Below the pieces are notes generated by a model. That model worked only from the letters and a program-made list of their open reading frames with translations, did not search any database and had not been told where the DNA came from. Positions 1-7,686 of a stretch of DNA of 64,000 bases are shown here, piece by piece (positions within the stretch are counted from its first letter, which is position 1; each line of letters opens with the position of its first letter). The position numbers and the translations under genes are program-made. The DNA comes from Thermus oshimai DSM 12092 (GTDB lineage Bacteria; Deinococcota; Deinococci; Deinococcales; Thermaceae): assembly GCF_000373145.1 (NCBI RefSeq), contig NZ_KB890602.1, positions 152,483 to 216,482 on the forward strand, in the 5' to 3' direction.

Positions 1-192
1 GGGGGCGGCCTGGGGGGGTTCCGCCGCCGCCGGCCCCCCCTGGGCCGGCAGGTAGAGCCCCACGTACCACAGGGCTACCCCTCCCACCAGGAGGAGGGCT
101 ACCAGGAGAATTTTCGTGGATTGGGGCAGGTTGCGCAGGCCCGAGAGGAAGCGGGCCAGGGTCGTTTGGGTGCCCCGCTCTGGTTCCTTCAC
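1..192 (-). CDS. pilW: PilW-like type IV pilus protein, N-terminal part (runs off window)
   Basis: Only the first 64 codons are present; the gene continues beyond the left edge. The start is a GTG at 192 that overlaps the pilO stop as GTGA. The fragment has a short basic, polar cytoplasmic head, one membrane helix at about residues 25-47 (ending LWYVGLYL) and the start of an Ala/Pro-rich linker. In Thermus the gene after pilO is pilW, needed for pilus assembly, natural transformation and PilQ secretin function. The assignment rests mainly on gene order (pilM-N-O-W) and the single-anchor topology; the fragment itself has no diagnostic motif. Confidence 0.7.
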   Translation of the reverse strand, partial: MKEPERGTQTTLARFLSGLRNLPQSTKILLVALLLVGGVALWYVGLYLPAQGGPAAAEPPQAAP

Positions 193-806
193 TGTCCACC
201 TCCCCCGCCCGGGGTTCCGGACGCCTGCTCCAGTTCTTCCACGTCCTTGGCCAACATGTAGAGGGTTAGGGTCAGGCTGGTGTTCAGGGTGGGGTTCAGG
301 CTAGGTTCCCCGGCCACCGCCAGGGAAAGCCCAGAGATGGAACTGAAGCGGGAAAGCCCCTCCAGGCGCCCGAGGTAGGCGTAGGTTTCCGGGAAGGGGC
401 CCTCCAGGGATAGGGCCAGGTTCACCGCCCGCACCTCCGGGACAGGGGCGGAGGTGGGGGAGCGGTTTAGGGCCCGCACGGTCACCCCGCTCCGGGCCGC
501 CTCCGAGAGGAGGGCGTTCAGCACCTCCCCAAGCCGCTCCTCCCGGGGAAGGGCCCTTAGGAAGGCTTGGCGCTCCGCCTGAAGCTCGGCAATGGCCGCC
601 CGGAGTTCCGGCAGGGCCCTTTGGGCCTGGCGCCCCCGGTCCCGCTCGGGGATGAGGGTGGCGATCTCGTTCCGCACCGCCTCCGTTTCCTGGCGGATGG
701 GGGCGATGAGGAGGAAGTACCAGAGGAGGGCCAGGATCACGGTGAGGGCCATGACGAGAAGGGCCCACTCCCGCTGGCCCAGCCGGCTTAGGCTAAGGTT
801 GAGCAC
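189..806 (-). CDS. pilO: Type IV pilus inner-membrane assembly protein PilO
   Basis: PilO forms the periplasmic PilN/PilO platform that links the PilM ring to the secretin PilQ. The protein has about 205 residues: a short cytoplasmic tail, one membrane helix (WALLVMALTVILALLWYFLL), a coiled-coil stretch rich in Glu, Arg and Ala, then a compact alpha/beta C-terminal domain, the usual PilO plan. I prefer the GTG at 806, which has GGAGGTGAG 4-5 nt upstream, over the GTG at 815 that lies inside that Shine-Dalgarno. It overlaps the end of pilN by 14 bp and the pilW start by 3 bp, so the cluster is one operon. Confidence 0.88.
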   Translation of the reverse strand: MLNLSLSRLGQREWALLVMALTVILALLWYFLLIAPIRQETEAVRNEIATLIPERDRGRQAQRALPELRAAIAELQAERQAFLRALPREERLGEVLNALLSEAARSGVTVRALNRSPTSAPVPEVRAVNLALSLEGPFPETYAYLGRLEGLSRFSSISGLSLAVAGEPSLNPTLNTSLTLTLYMLAKDVEELEQASGTPGGGGGQ

Positions 807-1419
807 TGCGCTCACCTCCCATGGCCCCTATGCGGGCGGAAAAGGTCCAAAGCCCCCGGTCCCGATCCAGCGTGGCCCCTTGGAACTCGATCCCGAACCG
901 GGGGGAGGACTCGAAGGCCCGGACGAAGCCCACCAGGGCTTCCCGGTTCAGGGCCTCCCCCTGGACGGTGAACTCCACCCGCACCGTCTTGCCGTCGTAG
1001 GCCCCGTTCTGGGCGGCCTGCTTGGCTTCCTCTTCCGAGAGGGCGCGGGTGTTCACCGAGCGGAGGGCCACGGGGAACCGGCCTCCTGTGCGCGGGATCT
1101 GCCCGATGAAGGCCGCCAGGTACTCCGACCAGGGCACGAACCCCTTCCTCAGGCCCTCCCGGATGGCGAGGAGGGCCTCGAGGGTCTTCCTTTCCCGCTG
1201 GAGCCGGTTCTGCTCGGCGATGAAGGGCCTTAGGGCCTCCACCTCGGCCTTCAGGGCATCCCGCTCCGAGCGGGCCAGATTGAGCTCCGTAAGGGCGGTG
1301 TAGTGGAGGAAACCCATGGTGAGGAGGACGAAAAGGGCGAGGAGGGAGGCCGCAAGCCGCCACCAGCCGGGCTCCACCCGGCGCCTAAGGTCCTTGGGGA
1401 GGAGGTTCAGCCTAATCAA
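793..1419 (-). CDS. pilN: Type IV pilus assembly protein PilN
   Basis: PilN is the bitopic partner of PilO; its cytoplasmic N-terminal peptide docks on PilM. The sequence begins MIRLNLLPKDLRRR, the conserved PilN N-terminus (consensus INLLP) that binds PilM. A membrane helix follows (about residues 22-42), then a coiled coil rich in Glu/Arg and a ferredoxin-like periplasmic domain. The length of 208 residues is normal for the family. The start overlaps the end of pilM by 8 bp. The gene order and the intact INLLP motif make the call secure. Confidence 0.93.
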   Translation of the reverse strand: MIRLNLLPKDLRRRVEPGWWRLAASLLALFVLLTMGFLHYTALTELNLARSERDALKAEVEALRPFIAEQNRLQRERKTLEALLAIREGLRKGFVPWSEYLAAFIGQIPRTGGRFPVALRSVNTRALSEEEAKQAAQNGAYDGKTVRVEFTVQGEALNREALVGFVRAFESSPRFGIEFQGATLDRDRGLWTFSARIGAMGGERSAQP

Positions 1420-2557
1420 GCGGACTCACCCCCCTTAAGGCCAGGCCCACGGGCACCATAAACTCCGGGGCCAGGCCCTTGAGCTCTTCCAGGTCAAAGC
1501 GCTTGGGGTCCACGGCGATGCCCTCCCAGGGGTTGGGCACCTCAAAGCTCACCCCCAGGGTGTCCGTGAGGAGGGTGGGGAGGCCCCGGAGCTTGCTCCC
1601 GCCCCCCGTGAGGTAGCCCACCTCGGGCTGGAGGTCCCCCATCTGCACCCGGAAGAACTCCAGGCTCCGCCGGATCTCCTGGGTGAGCTCCACCAGCACG
1701 GGGCGGATGGCGTCATAGATGCGGGCCGGGCTGTACCGTTCCCTCTCCGCGTCAAAGTCCAGGAGGAGTTCCTCGTCCTCCGTGGGGATGGTGGCCAGGC
1801 CATAGGTGCGCTTGACCTCCTCCGCGCTGAGGAGGTCCAGGCCGAAGGCCTTGCCGATGGCCTCGGTGAAGTCCTTGCCGGAGAGGGTGAGGATGCGCAC
1901 GTAAAGGGGCCGGTCCCCCTGGGTGAGGACCAGGCTGGTGCTCTCCGCTCCGATGTCCACGGAAAGGGTCACCGGACCTTCCGTGAGCTTTTCTTCCAGG
2001 GGGTAGAGCCCCGCGAAGGGCTTCACGTCCACCACCACCGGGATGAGCCCTGCCCCCCTCAGGGCCTCGATGAGCCCCGCCACGCTCTCCTTCCGGGCGG
2101 CCCCCACCATGACCTCCACCTGCTCCCCCTCCTCGGCCTCCTCCAGGGGGGTGAGGGGGGCGTAGTCCAGGACCACCTCGTCTATGGGGAAGGGGATGTA
2201 GCGCTCCGCCTCCCAGCGCACCGCCTCCTCCATCTCCTTGGCGGGCATCTTGGGCACCTGGACCGTGCGCAGGATGACCGAGAGGTTGGGGGCCGCGGTG
2301 ACCACGTAGCGCTTCTTGGTCCTGGCCTCGGCGAGGAGCTCCCGGAGTTCTTGAGCTAAGGCGCTGGGCTCGGCGATGAGCCCGTCCACGAGGGTGCCCG
2401 GGGGGGTGGGCCGCATGGCCCAAGCCTTGAGGGCCGGGGGGTTGCCGGAAAGCTCCACCAGCTTGAGGTGCGCCGCCCCGATCTCCAGGCCCAGGGCCTC
2501 AACCCGGGGTTTGAATAGACGGCTCAGTGCGCCCTGACGAAAGAGCCTTTGAACCAC
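1412..2557 (-). CDS. pilM: Type IV pilus assembly ATPase-like protein PilM
   Basis: PilM is the cytoplasmic actin-like (FtsA/SHS2 fold) ring protein of the type IV pilus and DNA-uptake machine. Visible signatures are an N-terminal phosphate-binding turn (GLEIGAAHLKLVELSG), a second one near the middle (DIGAESTSLVL) and the late GGGSKLRGL adenosine motif. The 381 residues closely match Thermus PilM in my recollection. The start is a GTG at 2557 preceded by AGGAGG. The gene heads pilM-N-O-W with overlapping junctions. In Thermus these genes serve twitching, adhesion and natural competence. The upstream gap to 2742 holds only a hicdh terminator and weak AT-rich promoter-like elements. Confidence 0.95.
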   Translation of the reverse strand: MVQRLFRQGALSRLFKPRVEALGLEIGAAHLKLVELSGNPPALKAWAMRPTPPGTLVDGLIAEPSALAQELRELLAEARTKKRYVVTAAPNLSVILRTVQVPKMPAKEMEEAVRWEAERYIPFPIDEVVLDYAPLTPLEEAEEGEQVEVMVGAARKESVAGLIEALRGAGLIPVVVDVKPFAGLYPLEEKLTEGPVTLSVDIGAESTSLVLTQGDRPLYVRILTLSGKDFTEAIGKAFGLDLLSAEEVKRTYGLATIPTEDEELLLDFDAERERYSPARIYDAIRPVLVELTQEIRRSLEFFRVQMGDLQPEVGYLTGGGSKLRGLPTLLTDTLGVSFEVPNPWEGIAVDPKRFDLEELKGLAPEFMVPVGLALRGVSPLD

Positions 2558-2741: not shown

Positions 2742-3746
2742 CTACACCCGCCCCAGGGCCCGGATCACCGCTTCCGTGAAGGCCTTGGTGGTGGCGTTTC
2801 CCCCGAGGTCGGGGGTAAGGGGGCCCTCTTCCAGGGCCAGGTCCACCGCCCGTTCCACCTTCCGGGCCATCTCCTTTTCCCCCAGGTAGTCCAGCATCAT
2901 GGCCGCGGAGAGGATGGCCGCCGTGGGGTTGGCGATCCCCTGGCCGGCGATATCCGGAGCCGACCCGTGCACGGGCTCAAAGACCGCGGTGGTGTCCCCG
3001 ATGTTGGCCGAAGGGGCGAGGCCCAAGCCCCCCACGAGCCCCGCGGTGAGGTCGGAGAGGATGTCCCCCAGGAGGTTGGTGGTGACGATCACGTCAAAGC
3101 GTTCGGGGCGCATGACGAGCTGCATGGCGCAGTTGTCCACGATGATGTCCTGGACGTTCACCAGGGGGAAGTCCTTGGCCGCCTCGCGCACGGTGTCCAG
3201 GAAGAGCCCCTGGGTGAGGGGGAGGACGTTGGCCTTGTGGGCGATGTGGAGGGTCTTACGGGTCCGGCCCTCGGCGATCCTTAGGGCCACGCGCCCGATG
3301 CGTTCGCTGGCCTTTTTGGAGATGACGGCGTCCGCGATGGCCACGTCCAGGTAGCGGCGTTCCTGCTCCACGTAAAGCCCTTCCGTGTTCTCCCGCACGA
3401 TGATGAGGTCCACCCCCGGGCGGCTATTCGGGATGGGGCGGCTCTTGGCCGGGCGCACGTTGGCGTAGAGGTCCAGCCGCCGCCTTAAGTAGCGGATGGC
3501 CCCGAAGAACCCCGGCACCTTGCGGGTGGGGCTGGTGGCGGCCCCGAAGAGGGTGGCGTGGCAGGAGAGGATCTTCTCTACGGTTTCCTCGGGGACGGAG
3601 GTCCCTCTTCGCTCAAAGGTTTCCCAACCCGCCTCGGCCTCCACGAACTCCAGGGGAAGCCCGGTGGCCTCCAGCACGGCCCGGGCCGCCGGAACCACCT
3701 CGTGGCCGATGCCGTCGCCCTCAATCAAGCAGATGCGGTACCCCAT
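2742..3746 (-). CDS. hicdh: Homoisocitrate dehydrogenase (lysine biosynthesis, AAA pathway)
   Basis: This NAD-dependent beta-decarboxylating dehydrogenase converts homoisocitrate to 2-oxoadipate in the alpha-aminoadipate lysine route used by Thermus. It has 334 residues, the known length of the T. thermophilus enzyme, and the sequence agrees with that enzyme nearly throughout as I recall it. Diagnostic is Arg85 in [10 protein letters not shown], the residue reported to set specificity for homoisocitrate and isocitrate instead of isopropylmalate. The catalytic Tyr (ENTEGLYVE), Lys (AHKAN) and metal-binding Asp residues (VDNCAM, DILSDL) are all present, as is the GSAPDIAG cofactor loop. AAGGAGG lies 7 nt before the ATG. 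It appears to be monocistronic. Confidence 0.95.
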
Positions 3747-3791
3747 GAACTGGCCTCCTTACGGGGTTCATACCCCTTAGCGAACTATACA

Positions 3792-4418
3792 CTACACCAG
3801 GCCCAAGGCCCAGAGGGTGGCGAAGAGGAGGAGGCCCAGGGCGAACCCCAGGCGGAAGGGGCTGGGCTTGAGGCTCCGGGGCCTGAGGGCCCCCTCCACC
3901 ACCACCCCCATAAGGCCCAGGAGGATGAAGAGGTCCCCCAGGCTCACCGCCTTACGCAGGGGAGGCAGGGCGATGGTGTCCCCCAGGAAGGGGAGGCGGG
4001 TGGAGCTGTCCAGGAGGGTGTGCACCGCGTCCTTGCGCTCCTTTAGGATCTCCTCCCACCCCTCCACCCCGGCCCGTTCCAGGGCCCCTAAGCTCACCGG
4101 CATGTGCCCCCCGTTGGCGAAGATGACCAGGGCGTTCAGAAAAAGCCCGAGGAGGACCAGGTAAAGGCTCTTCAGGTGCCGGTTTTGGTAAAGGCCGTAG
4201 CCCACGAGGAGGAGGACCAGGGCCTTGGCCAAAGGTCCTGCCCACTCTGGGGCGAAGAGGCCCCGGTAGGTGCCGTAGGCCAGCCCCCCCTCGACCAAGG
4301 CGGCCAGGAGGAAGGCCCAGGGCGCCCGGAGGTCTAGCTCTCCGAGGTCCTTGAGCCGGGCTCCGAGGACGAGGGCAAGGACGATTCCGAAGAGGGCTGC
4401 GGCAAGGTAGAGGGTGAT
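3792..4418 (-). CDS. DUF5317-type membrane protein with no canonical start codon
   Basis: A small integral membrane protein with several hydrophobic helices; it resembles the DUF5317 family, whose role is unknown. The first normal start codon in frame is TTG at 4298, giving 168 residues, but that removes a well-formed first helix (LYLAAALFGIVLALVLGARL) which is coded in the same open frame just upstream. Extending the frame gives a natural N-terminus at an ATC codon (4416-4418) that follows a GGGGGG stretch at Shine-Dalgarno distance. Either a rare ATC start is used, or the protein begins at 4298. The 5' part overlaps the HD-GYP gene (4334-5740) in another frame, suggesting coupling. Confidence 0.7.
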   Translation of the reverse strand: MTLYLAAALFGIVLALVLGARLKDLGELDLRAPWAFLLAALVEGGLAYGTYRGLFAPEWAGPLAKALVLLLVGYGLYQNRHLKSLYLVLLGLFLNALVIFANGGHMPVSLGALERAGVEGWEEILKERKDAVHTLLDSSTRLPFLGDTIALPPLRKAVSLGDLFILLGLMGVVVEGALRPRSLKPSPFRLGFALGLLLFATLWALGLV

Positions 4419-5740
4419 ACCGATCCCCCCTTTGCGGCCAGGTAGGCCTCGCGGTCGCGCCAGATGGGGTTCTGGTTCCAGAGAACCGTAAAGAGCCGGA
4501 CCAGCTTGGGGTCAAACTGGACGCCCGAAAAGTCCTGCACCTCCTTTAGGGCTTCCTCGGGGGACTTGGCCTCCCGGTAAGGTCGGCCTGCGGTCATGGC
4601 CTCGTAGGCGTCCGCCAGGCCCACGATGCGGGCCTCCTCGGGGATGTCCTGCCCCGCAAGGCCCTCGGGGTAGCCCCGGCCGTCCCAGCGCTCGTGGTGG
4701 TAGAGGATGACGTTGTAGACCAGCTGATCAAAGGCCACCTTCCTGGCGGGGGAGAGGAGTTCGGCCCCCAGTTTGGTGTGGCTTTTGATGAGGTCAAACT
4801 CCGCTTCCGTGAGCTTTCCCGGCTTGAGGAGGACCGCTTCCGGGATGGCGATCTTGCCGATGTCGTGAAGCCTGGCCGCCCGGTAGATTTCCTGAGCTTT
4901 GGCCTCGTCGTTATAGAAGGCCTTGGCGAGGTCGCGGGCGATGTCCGCCACGCGTTCGGAGTGCATGCGGGTTTGCCTCTCCTTGGCCTCCAGGGCGTTC
5001 ATGAGGACTTCCAGGGTGGTGTCAAAGGCCTGCTCCAGGCGCACCTTCTCGTCCCAGTAGTAGCGGCTGTAGTAGAGGGGCACCAGGAAGAGGAGGACCG
5101 TCCACCCCCCCCAGTTGCCGATGAGGGGGGTTTCGTAGGCGCGGGCCAGGAGGAGGGCTATTGGCGAAAGAAAAAAATAGCTTATGGCAAGCCACTTGAA
5201 ATTTTTGCGCCAAATCTCGCCCCAAGGTGTATTTGAGGATAAATAAATTGCTGTGGTAACTAAAGATGTGTTGGTTGCGAAAAAAGCAAGAGCGGCTGTA
5301 GATATCCCCACACCTGTGCTTAAATTCCAGGATCCAAGATAGAGAGAGTTGTTTGTAAAAAAGTTCCATACTAAGCCGGCTATTGCTGTAGATAAAGCGT
5401 CCTGAGAACGATTGAAGACTTGTTTATACCAACTACTCCCACTGCCTTGAAGAAAAACTAGAAGAGGAACGATCCATGGAGGAAACAAGACTAGCATAGC
5501 TAAAGCGAAGAGGAACAGCTGACTCATACTGGCTTGAAAGGGAAGGCGTATTCTGACTCGAACACTCCAGTGAAGCAATAAACCCCAAAAGAAAACCCCC
5601 CAAAGGTCGTATTTAAGAGGTTCGCTCCTAAAAGCTAAGATGAGGTAGCCTTCAGCAAGCAGAAAGAACAAAAAAGTCCCTACGATGAACACAAGCACCC
5701 TAAGAGGGGGCACTTCCTGTTTTCTCAAAAAGGGTGACAT
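4334..5740 (-). CDS. Membrane-anchored HD-GYP domain phosphodiesterase, mosaic gene
   Basis: A predicted cyclic-di-GMP phosphodiesterase. An N-terminal membrane region of about seven helices (to about residue 225) is followed by an HD-GYP domain with its metal ligands: HSERVADIA, the HD pair in LHDIGK (about 292-293) and HHERWDGRGYP. The input-domain family was not recognised. ATG at 5740 is preferred over TTG at 5761. The first ~200 codons (5165-5740) are strikingly AT-rich and use Phe, Trp, Asn and Thr freely, while the rest has normal Thermus codon use, so the N-terminal half was probably acquired by recombination. The gene lies just after a peptide ORF and its terminator. Confidence 0.88.
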   Translation of the reverse strand: MSPFLRKQEVPPLRVLVFIVGTFLFFLLAEGYLILAFRSEPLKYDLWGVFFWGLLLHWSVRVRIRLPFQASMSQLFLFALAMLVLFPPWIVPLLVFLQGSGSSWYKQVFNRSQDALSTAIAGLVWNFFTNNSLYLGSWNLSTGVGISTAALAFFATNTSLVTTAIYLSSNTPWGEIWRKNFKWLAISYFFLSPIALLLARAYETPLIGNWGGWTVLLFLVPLYYSRYYWDEKVRLEQAFDTTLEVLMNALEAKERQTRMHSERVADIARDLAKAFYNDEAKAQEIYRAARLHDIGKIAIPEAVLLKPGKLTEAEFDLIKSHTKLGAELLSPARKVAFDQLVYNVILYHHERWDGRGYPEGLAGQDIPEEARIVGLADAYEAMTAGRPYREAKSPEEALKEVQDFSGVQFDPKLVRLFTVLWNQNPIWRDREAYLAAKGGSVSPSTLPQPSSESSLPSSSEPGSRTSES

Positions 5741-5790
5741 TCTGCTAAAAGCATAACACAAAAGAAGGAAGAGTGCTTATGTGCGTAAAA

Positions 5791-5820
5791 GAAAAAAGGC
5801 CAGAAACCTGGCCTTTTTTC
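5791..5820 (-). terminator. Terminator or attenuator between peptide gene and HD-GYP gene
   Basis: A 30-base perfect hairpin: arms of 13 bases (GAAAAAAGGCCAG and its complement) around an AAAC loop. On the minus strand the stem GGCCAG/CTGGCC is followed by six T. The stem begins within about 10 nt of the peptide ORF stop codon, close enough for a terminating ribosome to affect folding. It also works as a terminator in the other direction. Confidence 0.85.
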
Positions 5821-5821
5821 T

Positions 5822-5911
5822 TTATTCCCAGCGAGCAGAAGCCCCAGCCGCGAGCCCGAGAGCGATCAAGCTACCGAGAAGAACCAACACACGCGCGATC
5901 AGCTTCTTCAT
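5822..5911 (-). CDS. Tiny hydrophobic peptide (29 aa), possible signal or leader peptide
   Basis: A short ORF with a clear AAGGAGG Shine-Dalgarno 7 nt before the ATG at 5911 (an ATG at 5917 lies too close to it). The product has a basic start (MKKLIAR), one hydrophobic helix (VLVLLGSLIALGLAAG) and a short tail ASARWE. A consensus-like promoter stands upstream (5966-5994) and a strong terminator follows at once. The layout of basic head, helix and small tail recalls AgrD-type precursor peptides of Firmicutes, but the expected Cys and acidic tail are absent. It could equally be a leader peptide for attenuation, or a small membrane protein. The ORF is convincing; the function is not known. Confidence 0.65.
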   Translation of the reverse strand: MKKLIARVLVLLGSLIALGLAAGASARWE

Positions 5912-5965
5912 CTTCATCCCTCCTTTTCCTGCGCCCGGGGGGTCGTCCCCGTTTGCTTGTCTTTC

Positions 5966-5994
5966 ACTGTAGAGGGGTCTGTCAATACTGTCAA
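5966..5994 (-). promoter_or_regulatory. Strong promoter of the tiny peptide gene
   Basis: On the minus strand TTGACA (5994-5989), a 17-base spacer and TACAGT (5971-5966). A second TTGACA lies inside the spacer nine bases on (5985-5980). ACTGTCA words recur at 5987-5993 and 6026-6032. Confidence 0.75.
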
Positions 5995-6351
5995 GAGGGG
6001 AAGAATAAGTATCAGCACGGTGAAAACTGTCACTCCCTACGCAATTGTTTGGACTGAAGAGAATATATGCTCCCAGCCTAGCACACCCTGCGCCAGCTGG
6101 GAAGGGGGGTAAGCCGTGCTTGGTTGTGGGCGGGAATCTTAAACGGGAATAAGAAAACCCGGGGGGAAAAGGGCTTCCCCTCGAGGTCCCCAATACGCCT
6201 GGTTGAACATCCCTTGCGAATACACGGGTCCAATCTGCGCTGAAAATCTACCGCCCAAATGCGCCTTTAAATGCACCCCCAGAAGCTTCGCGCTTCCTTC
6301 CTGGCTTTCACCCCCCAAGGGGAAGTTTAGCAGAAAATCCCGGAGAAAGCC
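5995..6351. other. Intergenic stretch without recognisable gene
   Basis: Between the peptide promoter and the tRNA terminator I find no ORF with a ribosome binding site or protein-like composition. Base composition is more AT-rich than in surrounding genes, especially 5995-6070. An ACTGTCA word at 6026-6032 repeats one in the peptide promoter. Confidence 0.5.
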
Positions 6352-6376
6352 AAAGCCCCCCGAAAAGGGGGGCTTT
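6352..6376 (-). terminator. Terminator of the tRNA-Asp/tRNA-Phe transcript
   Basis: Arms AAAGCCCCCC and GGGGGGCTTT around a GAAAA loop, starting one base after the encoded CCA of tRNA-Phe. On the minus strand it ends in a short T-run. Confidence 0.8.
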
Positions 6377-6452
6377 TGGTGCCGAGGGGCGGAATCGAAC
6401 CGCCGACACTGCGATTTTCAGTCGCATGCTCTACCAACTGAGCTACCTCGGC
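6377..6452 (-). tRNA. tRNA-Phe (anticodon GAA)
   Basis: A 76-base cloverleaf on the minus strand. The acceptor arms are GCCGAGG and CCTCGGC, with discriminator A and an encoded CCA. The D arm holds AGTTGGTAGA, the anticodon loop is CTGAAAA with GAA, and the T loop is TTCGATT closed by GGCGG/CCGCC. It lies one base after tRNA-Asp in the same transcript. Confidence 0.97.
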
Positions 6453-6453
6453 G

Positions 6454-6530
6454 TGGCGGCCCCGACGGGACTCGAACCCGCGATCTCCCACGTGACAGGC
6501 GGGTGTGTTAACCAACTACACCACGGGGCC
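6454..6530 (-). tRNA. tRNA-Asp (anticodon GTC)
   Basis: A 77-base cloverleaf on the minus strand. The acceptor arms are GGCCCCG and CGGGGCC, with discriminator G and an encoded CCA. The anticodon loop CTGTCAC carries GTC; the T loop is TTCGAGT. First gene of a two-tRNA transcript with a consensus promoter. Confidence 0.97.
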
Positions 6531-6574
6531 TTAGGGTTTGTGCCGGGTCGGGGGCGTCCGACCGGGCATTTAGG

Positions 6575-6603
6575 ATAATAGCCGGGGCTTTAGGCTGTGT
6601 CAA
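6575..6603 (-). promoter_or_regulatory. Consensus promoter of the tRNA-Asp/tRNA-Phe operon
   Basis: Minus strand: TTGACA (6603-6598), a 17-base spacer, TATTAT (6580-6575). This near-perfect sigma-A promoter ends 45 bases before the mature tRNA-Asp. The -35 box overlaps the first codons of the plus-strand gene at 6597. Confidence 0.9.
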
Positions 6604-6968
6604 GCTTGACCTGGACCGAGGTCTTCGCCTACCACCGGACGCGGAAGGGCATCGGGGAGAAAAGCCTCCTGGTGGACCGGGGGGAATCAGGCTACCGGAA
6701 CGTTTTTTTGCCGGATGGGCGCATCCTCTACATGGGGGAGGGCAGGCGGGGCCACCAGGCCCCCATGGGGGGCAACCTCCGCCTCCTCCTGGCCCACCGG
6801 GAGGGGCGCCCCCTTAGGGTTTTCCTCCGGGAAAGGCCCGGGGTTTGGCGGGACCTGGGGTGCTACCGGGTGGAGGGGTGGCGGTACGCCCTTCTGGAGG
6901 AGGAAGGGCGGTACGTGTACTGGTTCACCCTTGCGCCTGGTGGATGCGAAGGAGGCCTTTCAAGGTGA
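6597..6968 (+). CDS. Small protein resembling an SRA/YDG domain
   Basis: A 123-residue protein without signal or membrane segment. The middle part (GYRNVFLPDGRILYMGEGRRGHQAPMGGNLRLL split over residues 32-64, then RVFLRE and WRDLGCYRV) recalls the SRA/YDG fold used to read modified DNA bases, where a tyrosine, a GEG/GQG turn and a GN-L segment recur. This is pattern recognition, not a search result. No nuclease domain is fused or nearby. The start may be GTG at 6597 or TTG at 6606; no Shine-Dalgarno is evident. Its end overlaps the convergent coaX gene by 44 bp. Confidence 0.65.
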   Translation: MSSLTWTEVFAYHRTRKGIGEKSLLVDRGESGYRNVFLPDGRILYMGEGRRGHQAPMGGNLRLLLAHREGRPLRVFLRERPGVWRDLGCYRVEGWRYALLEEEGRYVYWFTLAPGGCEGGLSR

Positions 6969-7686
6969 GGTCCTCGTCCACCAGATCAAAGGAGGGGCAG
7001 ATGGGCTTTAGGACCTCCGCGAAGCCCCCGGTGGCGATGACCAGGGCCTCCCCCACCTCCTCCTTAAACCGGCGCACCATCCCCTCCACCAAGGCGGCGT
7101 AGCCCAGGACCAGGCCCGAGCGGAGGGCCTCGAGGGTGTTCTTCCCCACCGCCCTTTCGGGGGGGACCAGGTCGATGCGGGGGAGCTTGGCCGTGCGCTG
7201 GGCCAGGGCGTCGGCCGCGGTCTGGGGGCCGATGGTGATGGCCCCCCCCAGGTAGCGGTTCGGGGCCTCCACCAGGTCAAAGGTGGTGGCGGTGCCGAAG
7301 TCCACCACGATGTAGCGGCCCGTGGGGCTTTCGTAGGCCAGCGCCCCCACCGCGTTCACCAACCGGTCGGCCCCCGCCTCCTTGGGGTTGTCTATGAGGA
7401 CCTGAAGGCCCGTGGCCTCCGCGTCCACCACCCTGGCCTCCACCCCAAAGAGGTTCCCGATGGCCCGGGCCATCTCCCGCTCCACCGGGGGCACCACGCT
7501 GGAGAGGAGGGCGGCCTTGGGGGGTGGGAGGCCTTCTAGGGCGAAGAGGTTTTTGAGAAGGACCCGGTACTCGCTTTCCATCCGCATCCGGTCGGTGTGG
7601 ATGCGGAAATGGGCCACGAGCCTTTCCCCCTCAAAAAGCCCTAGGGCGGTGGAGGTGTTCCCGATGTCCACCGCGAGGAGCATCAT
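6925..7686 (-). CDS. coaX: Type III pantothenate kinase
   Basis: Catalyses ATP-dependent phosphorylation of pantothenate, the first step of coenzyme A synthesis, in the cytoplasm. The ASKHA-fold signatures are clear: DIGNTSTALGLF near the N-terminus, GADRLVNA with the substrate Asp around residue 105, VDFGTATTFD around 129 and the late ATGGFAEVL adenosine loop. The 253 residues fit the family. The start ATG at 7686 overlaps the stop of the osmC-like gene by 4 bp, so the two are cotranscribed. No coaA-type kinase was seen in this window. Confidence 0.95.
   Translation of the reverse strand: MMLLAVDIGNTSTALGLFEGERLVAHFRIHTDRMRMESEYRVLLKNLFALEGLPPPKAALLSSVVPPVEREMARAIGNLFGVEARVVDAEATGLQVLIDNPKEAGADRLVNAVGALAYESPTGRYIVVDFGTATTFDLVEAPNRYLGGAITIGPQTAADALAQRTAKLPRIDLVPPERAVGKNTLEALRSGLVLGYAALVEGMVRRFKEEVGEALVIATGGFAEVLKPICPSFDLVDEDLTLKGLLRIHQAQG

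Follow-up and report, generated by a model that had tools for sequence, protein, structure and literature searches.

The RRNPP/SHP-ComS propeptides of Bacillota are encoded by tiny ORFs beside the receptor gene, and they carry a KK doublet, a hydrophobic stretch and a C-terminal mature peptide that follows the site of signal-peptidase cleavage (PMC9765709). In the AgrD/AgrB/AgrC systems a small basic-hydrophobic precursor adjoins a polytopic membrane sensor. Pheromones of the XIP type contain tryptophan, and in Thermotoga maritima TM0504 reportedly ties peptide quorum sensing to c-di-GMP and exopolysaccharide. A survey of thermophiles cites the T. maritima peptide quorum system and found no complete one outside that species (PMC6022435). 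For c-di-GMP networks, a 2022 review of sensors names two quorum signals that have direct receptors, BDSF and AI-2, lists no peptide ligand, and describes MASE1 as a sensor without known purpose (PMC8846402). In DbfQ-DbfRS of Vibrio cholerae, a small periplasmic protein is encoded beside the two-component sensor that it regulates (PMC12714742).

The locus analysed here lies in a 64,000-nt window of the Thermus oshimai DSM 12092 genome (the whole stretch of DNA that was analysed), where an earlier note had described a promoter, an AAGGAGG site, a 29-codon ORF, a hairpin and an HD-GYP gene. All of these elements are present, on the minus strand (Table 1), and genes that we take to be pilM-, pilN- and pilO-like follow closely downstream of the block on that strand (window 189-2557). 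The micropeptide shares with the RRNPP/SHP-ComS propeptides a tiny ORF by its partner gene, a KK doublet, a hydrophobic stretch and a predicted cleavage site, and its sequence has the layout of an RRNPP-type propeptide (KK start, hydrophobic core, C-terminal segment after a signal-peptidase site). However, no RRNPP receptor gene was found beside it: the conserved neighbour encodes a predicted membrane MASE9-HD-GYP phosphodiesterase, whereas the RRNPP partner is a cytosolic regulator. The micropeptide differs further in that its core is conserved above its tail and in that it also occurs in a two-membrane phylum (Thermales).

Likeness to the Agr system stops at the small basic-hydrophobic precursor and the adjoining polytopic membrane sensor, as the locus contains no histidine kinase and AgrB (PF04647) is absent from the genome of the window. 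The doubts voiced in the earlier note about AgrD were right, and identity with AgrD is excluded: the peptide has no conserved Cys, a tail of 5-6 residues that is not acidic, and no AgrD match in NCBIfam or Pfam. With T. maritima, likewise a thermophile, the locus would have in common a peptide signal and an output through c-di-GMP. MASE9 is present in T. maritima too (it served as a control in the MASE9 searches), and we know of no tie between TM0504 and the T. maritima MASE9 gene. As in other MASE proteins, a polytopic membrane sensor is fused to a c-di-GMP enzyme. DbfQ-DbfRS is a two-component system, in contrast to the c-di-GMP enzyme found here.

Table 1. Features of the micropeptide locus in Thermus oshimai DSM 12092 (NZ_KB890602.1; window positions)
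Feature	Position	Strand	Remarks
Peptide promoter	-35 TTGACA 5994-5989, 17 nt, -10 TACAGT 5971-5966	(-)	10/12 consensus
5' UTR hairpin CGGGG..CCCCG	5936..5951	(-)	near-invariant in Thermus; energy unremarkable in window, z -0.7
Shine-Dalgarno AAGGAGG	5919..5925 (5925-5919)	(-)	kept in nearly all Thermus loci
Micropeptide gene, 29 codons + stop, MKKLIARVLVLLGSLIALGLAAGASARWE	5822..5911	(-)	Thermales-wide conservation, dN/dS 0.28
Intrinsic terminator, GGCCAG-GUUU-CUGGCC inside A/U-extended stem	5788..5820	(-)	-23 kcal/mol, z -6.3
Putative extended -10 TGTTATGCT, leaderless HD-GYP promoter	5750..5758	(-)	9 nt before ATG; sequence only
MASE9-HD-GYP c-di-GMP phosphodiesterase gene (predicted), 468 aa	4334..5740	(-)	Pfam domains, AlphaFold2 model
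MASE9 membrane sensor domain, residues 16-228	5057..5695	(-)	PF20972, 1e-19
HD-GYP catalytic domain, residues 244-413	4502..5011	(-)	HD_5 PF13487, 5e-41
DUF5317 membrane protein gene	3792..4415	(-)	PF17248, 1e-36; overlaps HD-GYP 3' end; start codon uncertain

The micropeptide and its transcript

An in-frame ATG at 5917, upstream of the ORF start, is ATA in two Thermus genomes (G024 and G005) and absent in another (G016); because it is not conserved, 5911 was taken as the true start. The resulting peptide has a basic MKK start, a hydrophobic core, A-G-A, three variable residues, W and one final polar residue, and in the window its tail consists of the five residues SARWE (W28). In the alignment G-A is invariant, the preceding A and the W are nearly so, and most invariant residues sit in the core (L, A, L and A-A-G-A) and not in the tail. 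The core SLVALGLAAGA is thus better conserved than the tail, with dN/dS values of 0.22 and 0.34, respectively, and a pooled value of about 0.28 over 231 Thermus pairs. This is the purifying selection that the earlier note had proposed to look for, and by its sequence evolution the micropeptide is a selected protein product. The small-x-A site is compatible with signal peptidase I, and cleavage is predicted there. No Pfam, NCBIfam or PHROG model matched the peptide; sub-threshold matches to the pheromone inhibitor Ipd (E 0.017) and to PapR (E 3.5) were taken as noise.

The peptide promoter is nearly invariant in the 26 Thermus loci (TTGACA and TAaAGT). Directly behind the peptide stop (4-5 nt) stands a terminator hairpin with a T-run, and none of 200 shuffled sequences folded as stably. 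Across the same 26 loci its position and pairing are kept while the stem sequence changes, and the position is also retained in most other Thermales. Further on, TGNTANNNT stands about 9 nt before the HD-GYP start in the 26 Thermus loci, and this start has no Shine-Dalgarno sequence. In other Thermales TANNNT occurs 6-10 nt before the HD-GYP start in 26 of 28 loci, against a background of 9%, and none of the 28 has a Shine-Dalgarno sequence before that start. Because the terminator is kept, a promoter motif is present and a Shine-Dalgarno sequence is lacking, the HD-GYP gene of Thermales is most likely transcribed separately, as its own leaderless mRNA. The peptide mRNA matched no Rfam family.

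One of the two readings offered in the earlier note was that the peptide is a leader whose translation governs read-through of the terminator into the HD-GYP gene. The terminator 4-5 nt behind the stop would suit such a leader, as would a long covarying stem in the Bacillota counterparts, the 3' arm of which falls between the end of the peptide ORF and the start of the HD-GYP gene and often precedes a U-run. However, the observation that the same note had named as speaking against a leader, an independent promoter of the HD-GYP gene, is what we find as far as sequence alone can tell, since in Thermales the gene has a leaderless promoter motif of its own behind the conserved terminator. Conservation at the protein level across phyla, together with the dN/dS of the peptide, is needless for a leader; the ORF contains no run of regulatory codons; and the peptide is retained in G005 and G026 despite an interrupted MASE9. 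A leader function is very unlikely.

Linkage to MASE9-HD-GYP genes in two phyla

Comparison of the locus across Thermus, which the earlier note had suggested as a check, placed the peptide together with the HD-GYP gene in 26 of 27 genomes, always adjoining it. In the remaining genome (G017, L106) both the peptide and the first half of MASE9 are missing and the remainder of the HD-GYP gene is kept; a single deletion could explain this joint loss. In G026 (L184) a transposase-like gene interrupts MASE9 near residue 83, and in G005 (L183) an insertion containing an N gap does so near the same residue; in both the peptide gene is intact.

A profile search with the peptide gave matches throughout Thermales. 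MASE9 is present in 60 of 111 genomes of the order, and the peptide was found in every MASE9-carrying genome whose contig permitted a check, including G039 and G044, which at first appeared to lack it. Where enough contig was available, about 160-330 nt separate the peptide from the HD-GYP match downstream of it, DUF5317 mostly lies behind the HD-GYP gene, and an isocitrate-dehydrogenase-like (ICDH) gene often comes next. The PanK and OsmC genes found upstream in Thermus are not common to Thermales outside the genus, and in G035 the peptide and HD-GYP gene persist where DUF5317 was not found. In G065 the peptide-HD-GYP-DUF5317 block occurs twice, on separate contigs (L176, L177). A plasmid search with the locus returned chance matches only.

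A first scan of contigs with the locus returned only distant HD-GYP genes, which supplied a lead in Halanaerobium and a control set. Three of these distant loci had short signal-peptide-like ORFs upstream, and MASE9 was therefore searched for in 399 Bacillota genomes and found in 123. Among the 30 best MASE9-HD-GYP loci, 27 had a precursor-like ORF upstream (e.g. MKTIAKVVLAIVTLVLAGGARLWW), whereas none was found at 65 HD-GYP genes that lack MASE9 or in 30 antisense windows. The criteria for such ORFs were fixed after these data had been seen. The Bacillota peptide has 24-28 aa and the form ..LVLAGGAxxxW, with the motif LAGGA plus xxxW. A profile built from 24 of these peptides and searched in the same 399 genomes gave 90 matches, 76 of them on the same strand and 65-414 nt upstream of a MASE9 match; as at most 24 of the 90 places are profile seeds, at least 52 of 66 are independent. 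Of the other 14, six stand before HD-GYP genes that have DUF5317 behind them; contig ends account for four, and the last four are weak matches inside long ORFs. None of the 14 contradicts the pairing. A DUF5317 gene usually lies 3' of the HD-GYP gene in Bacillota as well.

A second MASE9 architecture in Bacillota, with ORFs over 540 aa (about 560-615 aa), has the peptide in none of 38 cases, and the pairing is hence specific to the HD-GYP-sized type. Members of the Halanaerobium type differ in the core and end in VLA-DTSKW and ALA-DTVHWR, textbook signal peptidase sites. By gene order in both phyla, the peptide is specifically paired with MASE9-HD-GYP. As it is selected and tied to the HD-GYP gene far beyond the genus, the "peptide-controlled c-di-GMP unit" put forward in the earlier note is the best reading of the locus.

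A long-range stem closes the RNA that contains the Bacillota peptide ORF (L206-L235, e.g. L230:1130-1345 and L223:1152-1361); this stem has an 11 bp core with compensatory double changes at eight pairs. The RNA carries conserved GAGCGGAGCGG and UAGCGG motifs, often has a U-run after the 3' arm and matched no Rfam family, making it a candidate new structured RNA.

The MASE9-HD-GYP enzyme and DUF5317

Both domains of the neighbouring protein scored above curated cut-offs, its LHDIGK and HHERWDGRGYP motifs are intact, and the HD and HHExxDGxGYP motif residues are invariant among 76 relatives; the protein is a predicted c-di-GMP phosphodiesterase. The part that the earlier note described as seven-helix is MASE9; in this half the AlphaFold2 model (pLDDT 90.7) shows eight stretches of helix, of which two are short and next to each other. 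In Foldseek searches the HD half had the HD-GYP protein PA4781 as its best PDB match, and the MASE9 half matched RibU/FolT-type chains with probability 0.92-1.00 and TM (target) 0.53-0.63, at weak E-values of 0.1-0.95. The predicted MASE9 fold may thus resemble that of the six-helix ECF S-components (RibU, FolT), from which MASE9 differs as a signalling domain fused to HD-GYP. ECF S-components bind ligands on their outer face. N110, Q113 and N157 are invariant in MASE9.

The first half of MASE9 is AT-rich in the window (43% GC, 5170-5740). Its GC content varies from 0.40 to 0.65 among Thermus species whereas that of the HD half is steady at 0.62-0.72 across the genus, which suggests that the sensor genes are mosaic. 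In DUF5317 the polar motifs NGGxMPV, H and SxGD are invariant or nearly so; its structure model (pLDDT 88) matched no PDB fold, and the protein is possibly an unknown membrane enzyme or transporter. A search of open-access papers found nothing on MASE9 as a domain and nothing on DUF5317.

Possible action of the peptide on its sensor

The other reading in the earlier note, in which the peptide is secreted and the HD-GYP protein senses it through its membrane domain, is plausible. Most likely, the peptide is a dedicated ligand or regulator of MASE9 that acts from the outer face. In the mechanism that we propose, and consider reasonably likely, a strong, terminated transcript of its own would yield the micropeptide in excess, and Sec would insert the product with the N terminus on the inner side. 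The five-residue tryptophan tail would then face the outside, whether released by signal peptidase I cutting after A-G-A or still tethered to the membrane helix, and would serve as the dedicated ligand of the MASE9 domain of the adjoining HD-GYP protein. Binding would set the c-di-GMP phosphodiesterase activity, in either direction, with DUF5317 as a possible accessory membrane protein. The S-component likeness of MASE9 may be cited for a ligand, at a match E-value of about 0.1.

Further evidence on the link came from sequence distances within Thermus, where the distances between tails correlate with those between MASE9 domains (partial r 0.35, p 0.001, controlled for HD, ICDH and DUF5317) and show no link to HD, ICDH or DUF5317 distances. 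The core also co-varies with MASE9, and joint transfer of physically linked genes is a possible source of the co-variation between tail and MASE9.

One objection to the ligand reading is that the core is more conserved than the tail, beyond what a mere signal peptide needs. This strong core conservation is also the chief point in favour of a membrane-resident role: like CydX, KdpF or MgrB, the peptide could be a single-span subunit that stays in the membrane and whose helix packs on MASE9 (or DUF5317) and thereby stabilises or gates it, and the W would only anchor the helix at the outer interface. Consistent with this, the invariant residues lie mostly in the core, the small-residue motif LAGGA is common to the Bacillota peptides, and the distance of about 17-20 residues from the basic start to W fits a minimal transmembrane helix. 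However, a subunit is normally co-transcribed with its partner, so the terminator and separate promoter between the two genes speak against it, as do the Halanaerobium-type members, which keep the small-x-A site and the W tail on a different core, and the co-variation of the tail with MASE9. On balance a subunit is unlikely.

The micropeptide also resembles TisB-like toxins in size and shape, and it has its own transcription unit, as would a membrane-active microprotein (a type I toxin or stress peptide) that merely shares the locus. Such an unrelated neighbour is highly improbable, given that the peptide is linked specifically to MASE9-HD-GYP in both phyla and is absent beside other HD-GYP genes, that it mostly occurs once per genome, that its tail co-varies with MASE9, and that a simple scan of the plus strand over 3500-7500 showed no promoter-like site from which an antisense RNA against a toxin mRNA could start.

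Returning to the exported ligand, a broader and more tentative proposal, which we rate as possible but somewhat doubtful, is that Thermales and Bacillota have a widespread and undescribed peptide pheromone system: a tryptophan pentapeptide exported by Sec would be sensed directly by an S-component-like membrane domain that is joined to a c-di-GMP phosphodiesterase, and the species-specific tails would co-evolve with the mosaic halves of the sensors.

In two phyla, one type of sensor is accompanied by a peptide family that no Pfam, NCBIfam or PHROG model covers, and the data suggest an undescribed peptide signal wired directly into the c-di-GMP network. Most c-di-GMP enzymes have no known input and MASE domains no known ligand, and the peptide-MASE9 pair bears on both. 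If the proposal is true, MASE9 would be a direct peptide receptor in a c-di-GMP network, a kind missing from the 2022 review (PMC8846402). In Thermus thermophilus the pilus motor PilF binds c-di-GMP, and abolishing this binding reduces twitching and adhesion (PMC11731258). The probable output of the unit in Thermus is type IV pilus function, and its downstream effect would probably fall on type IV pili and adhesion. The question can be addressed in T. thermophilus, which is genetically tractable and has this c-di-GMP-binding PilF (PMC11731258).
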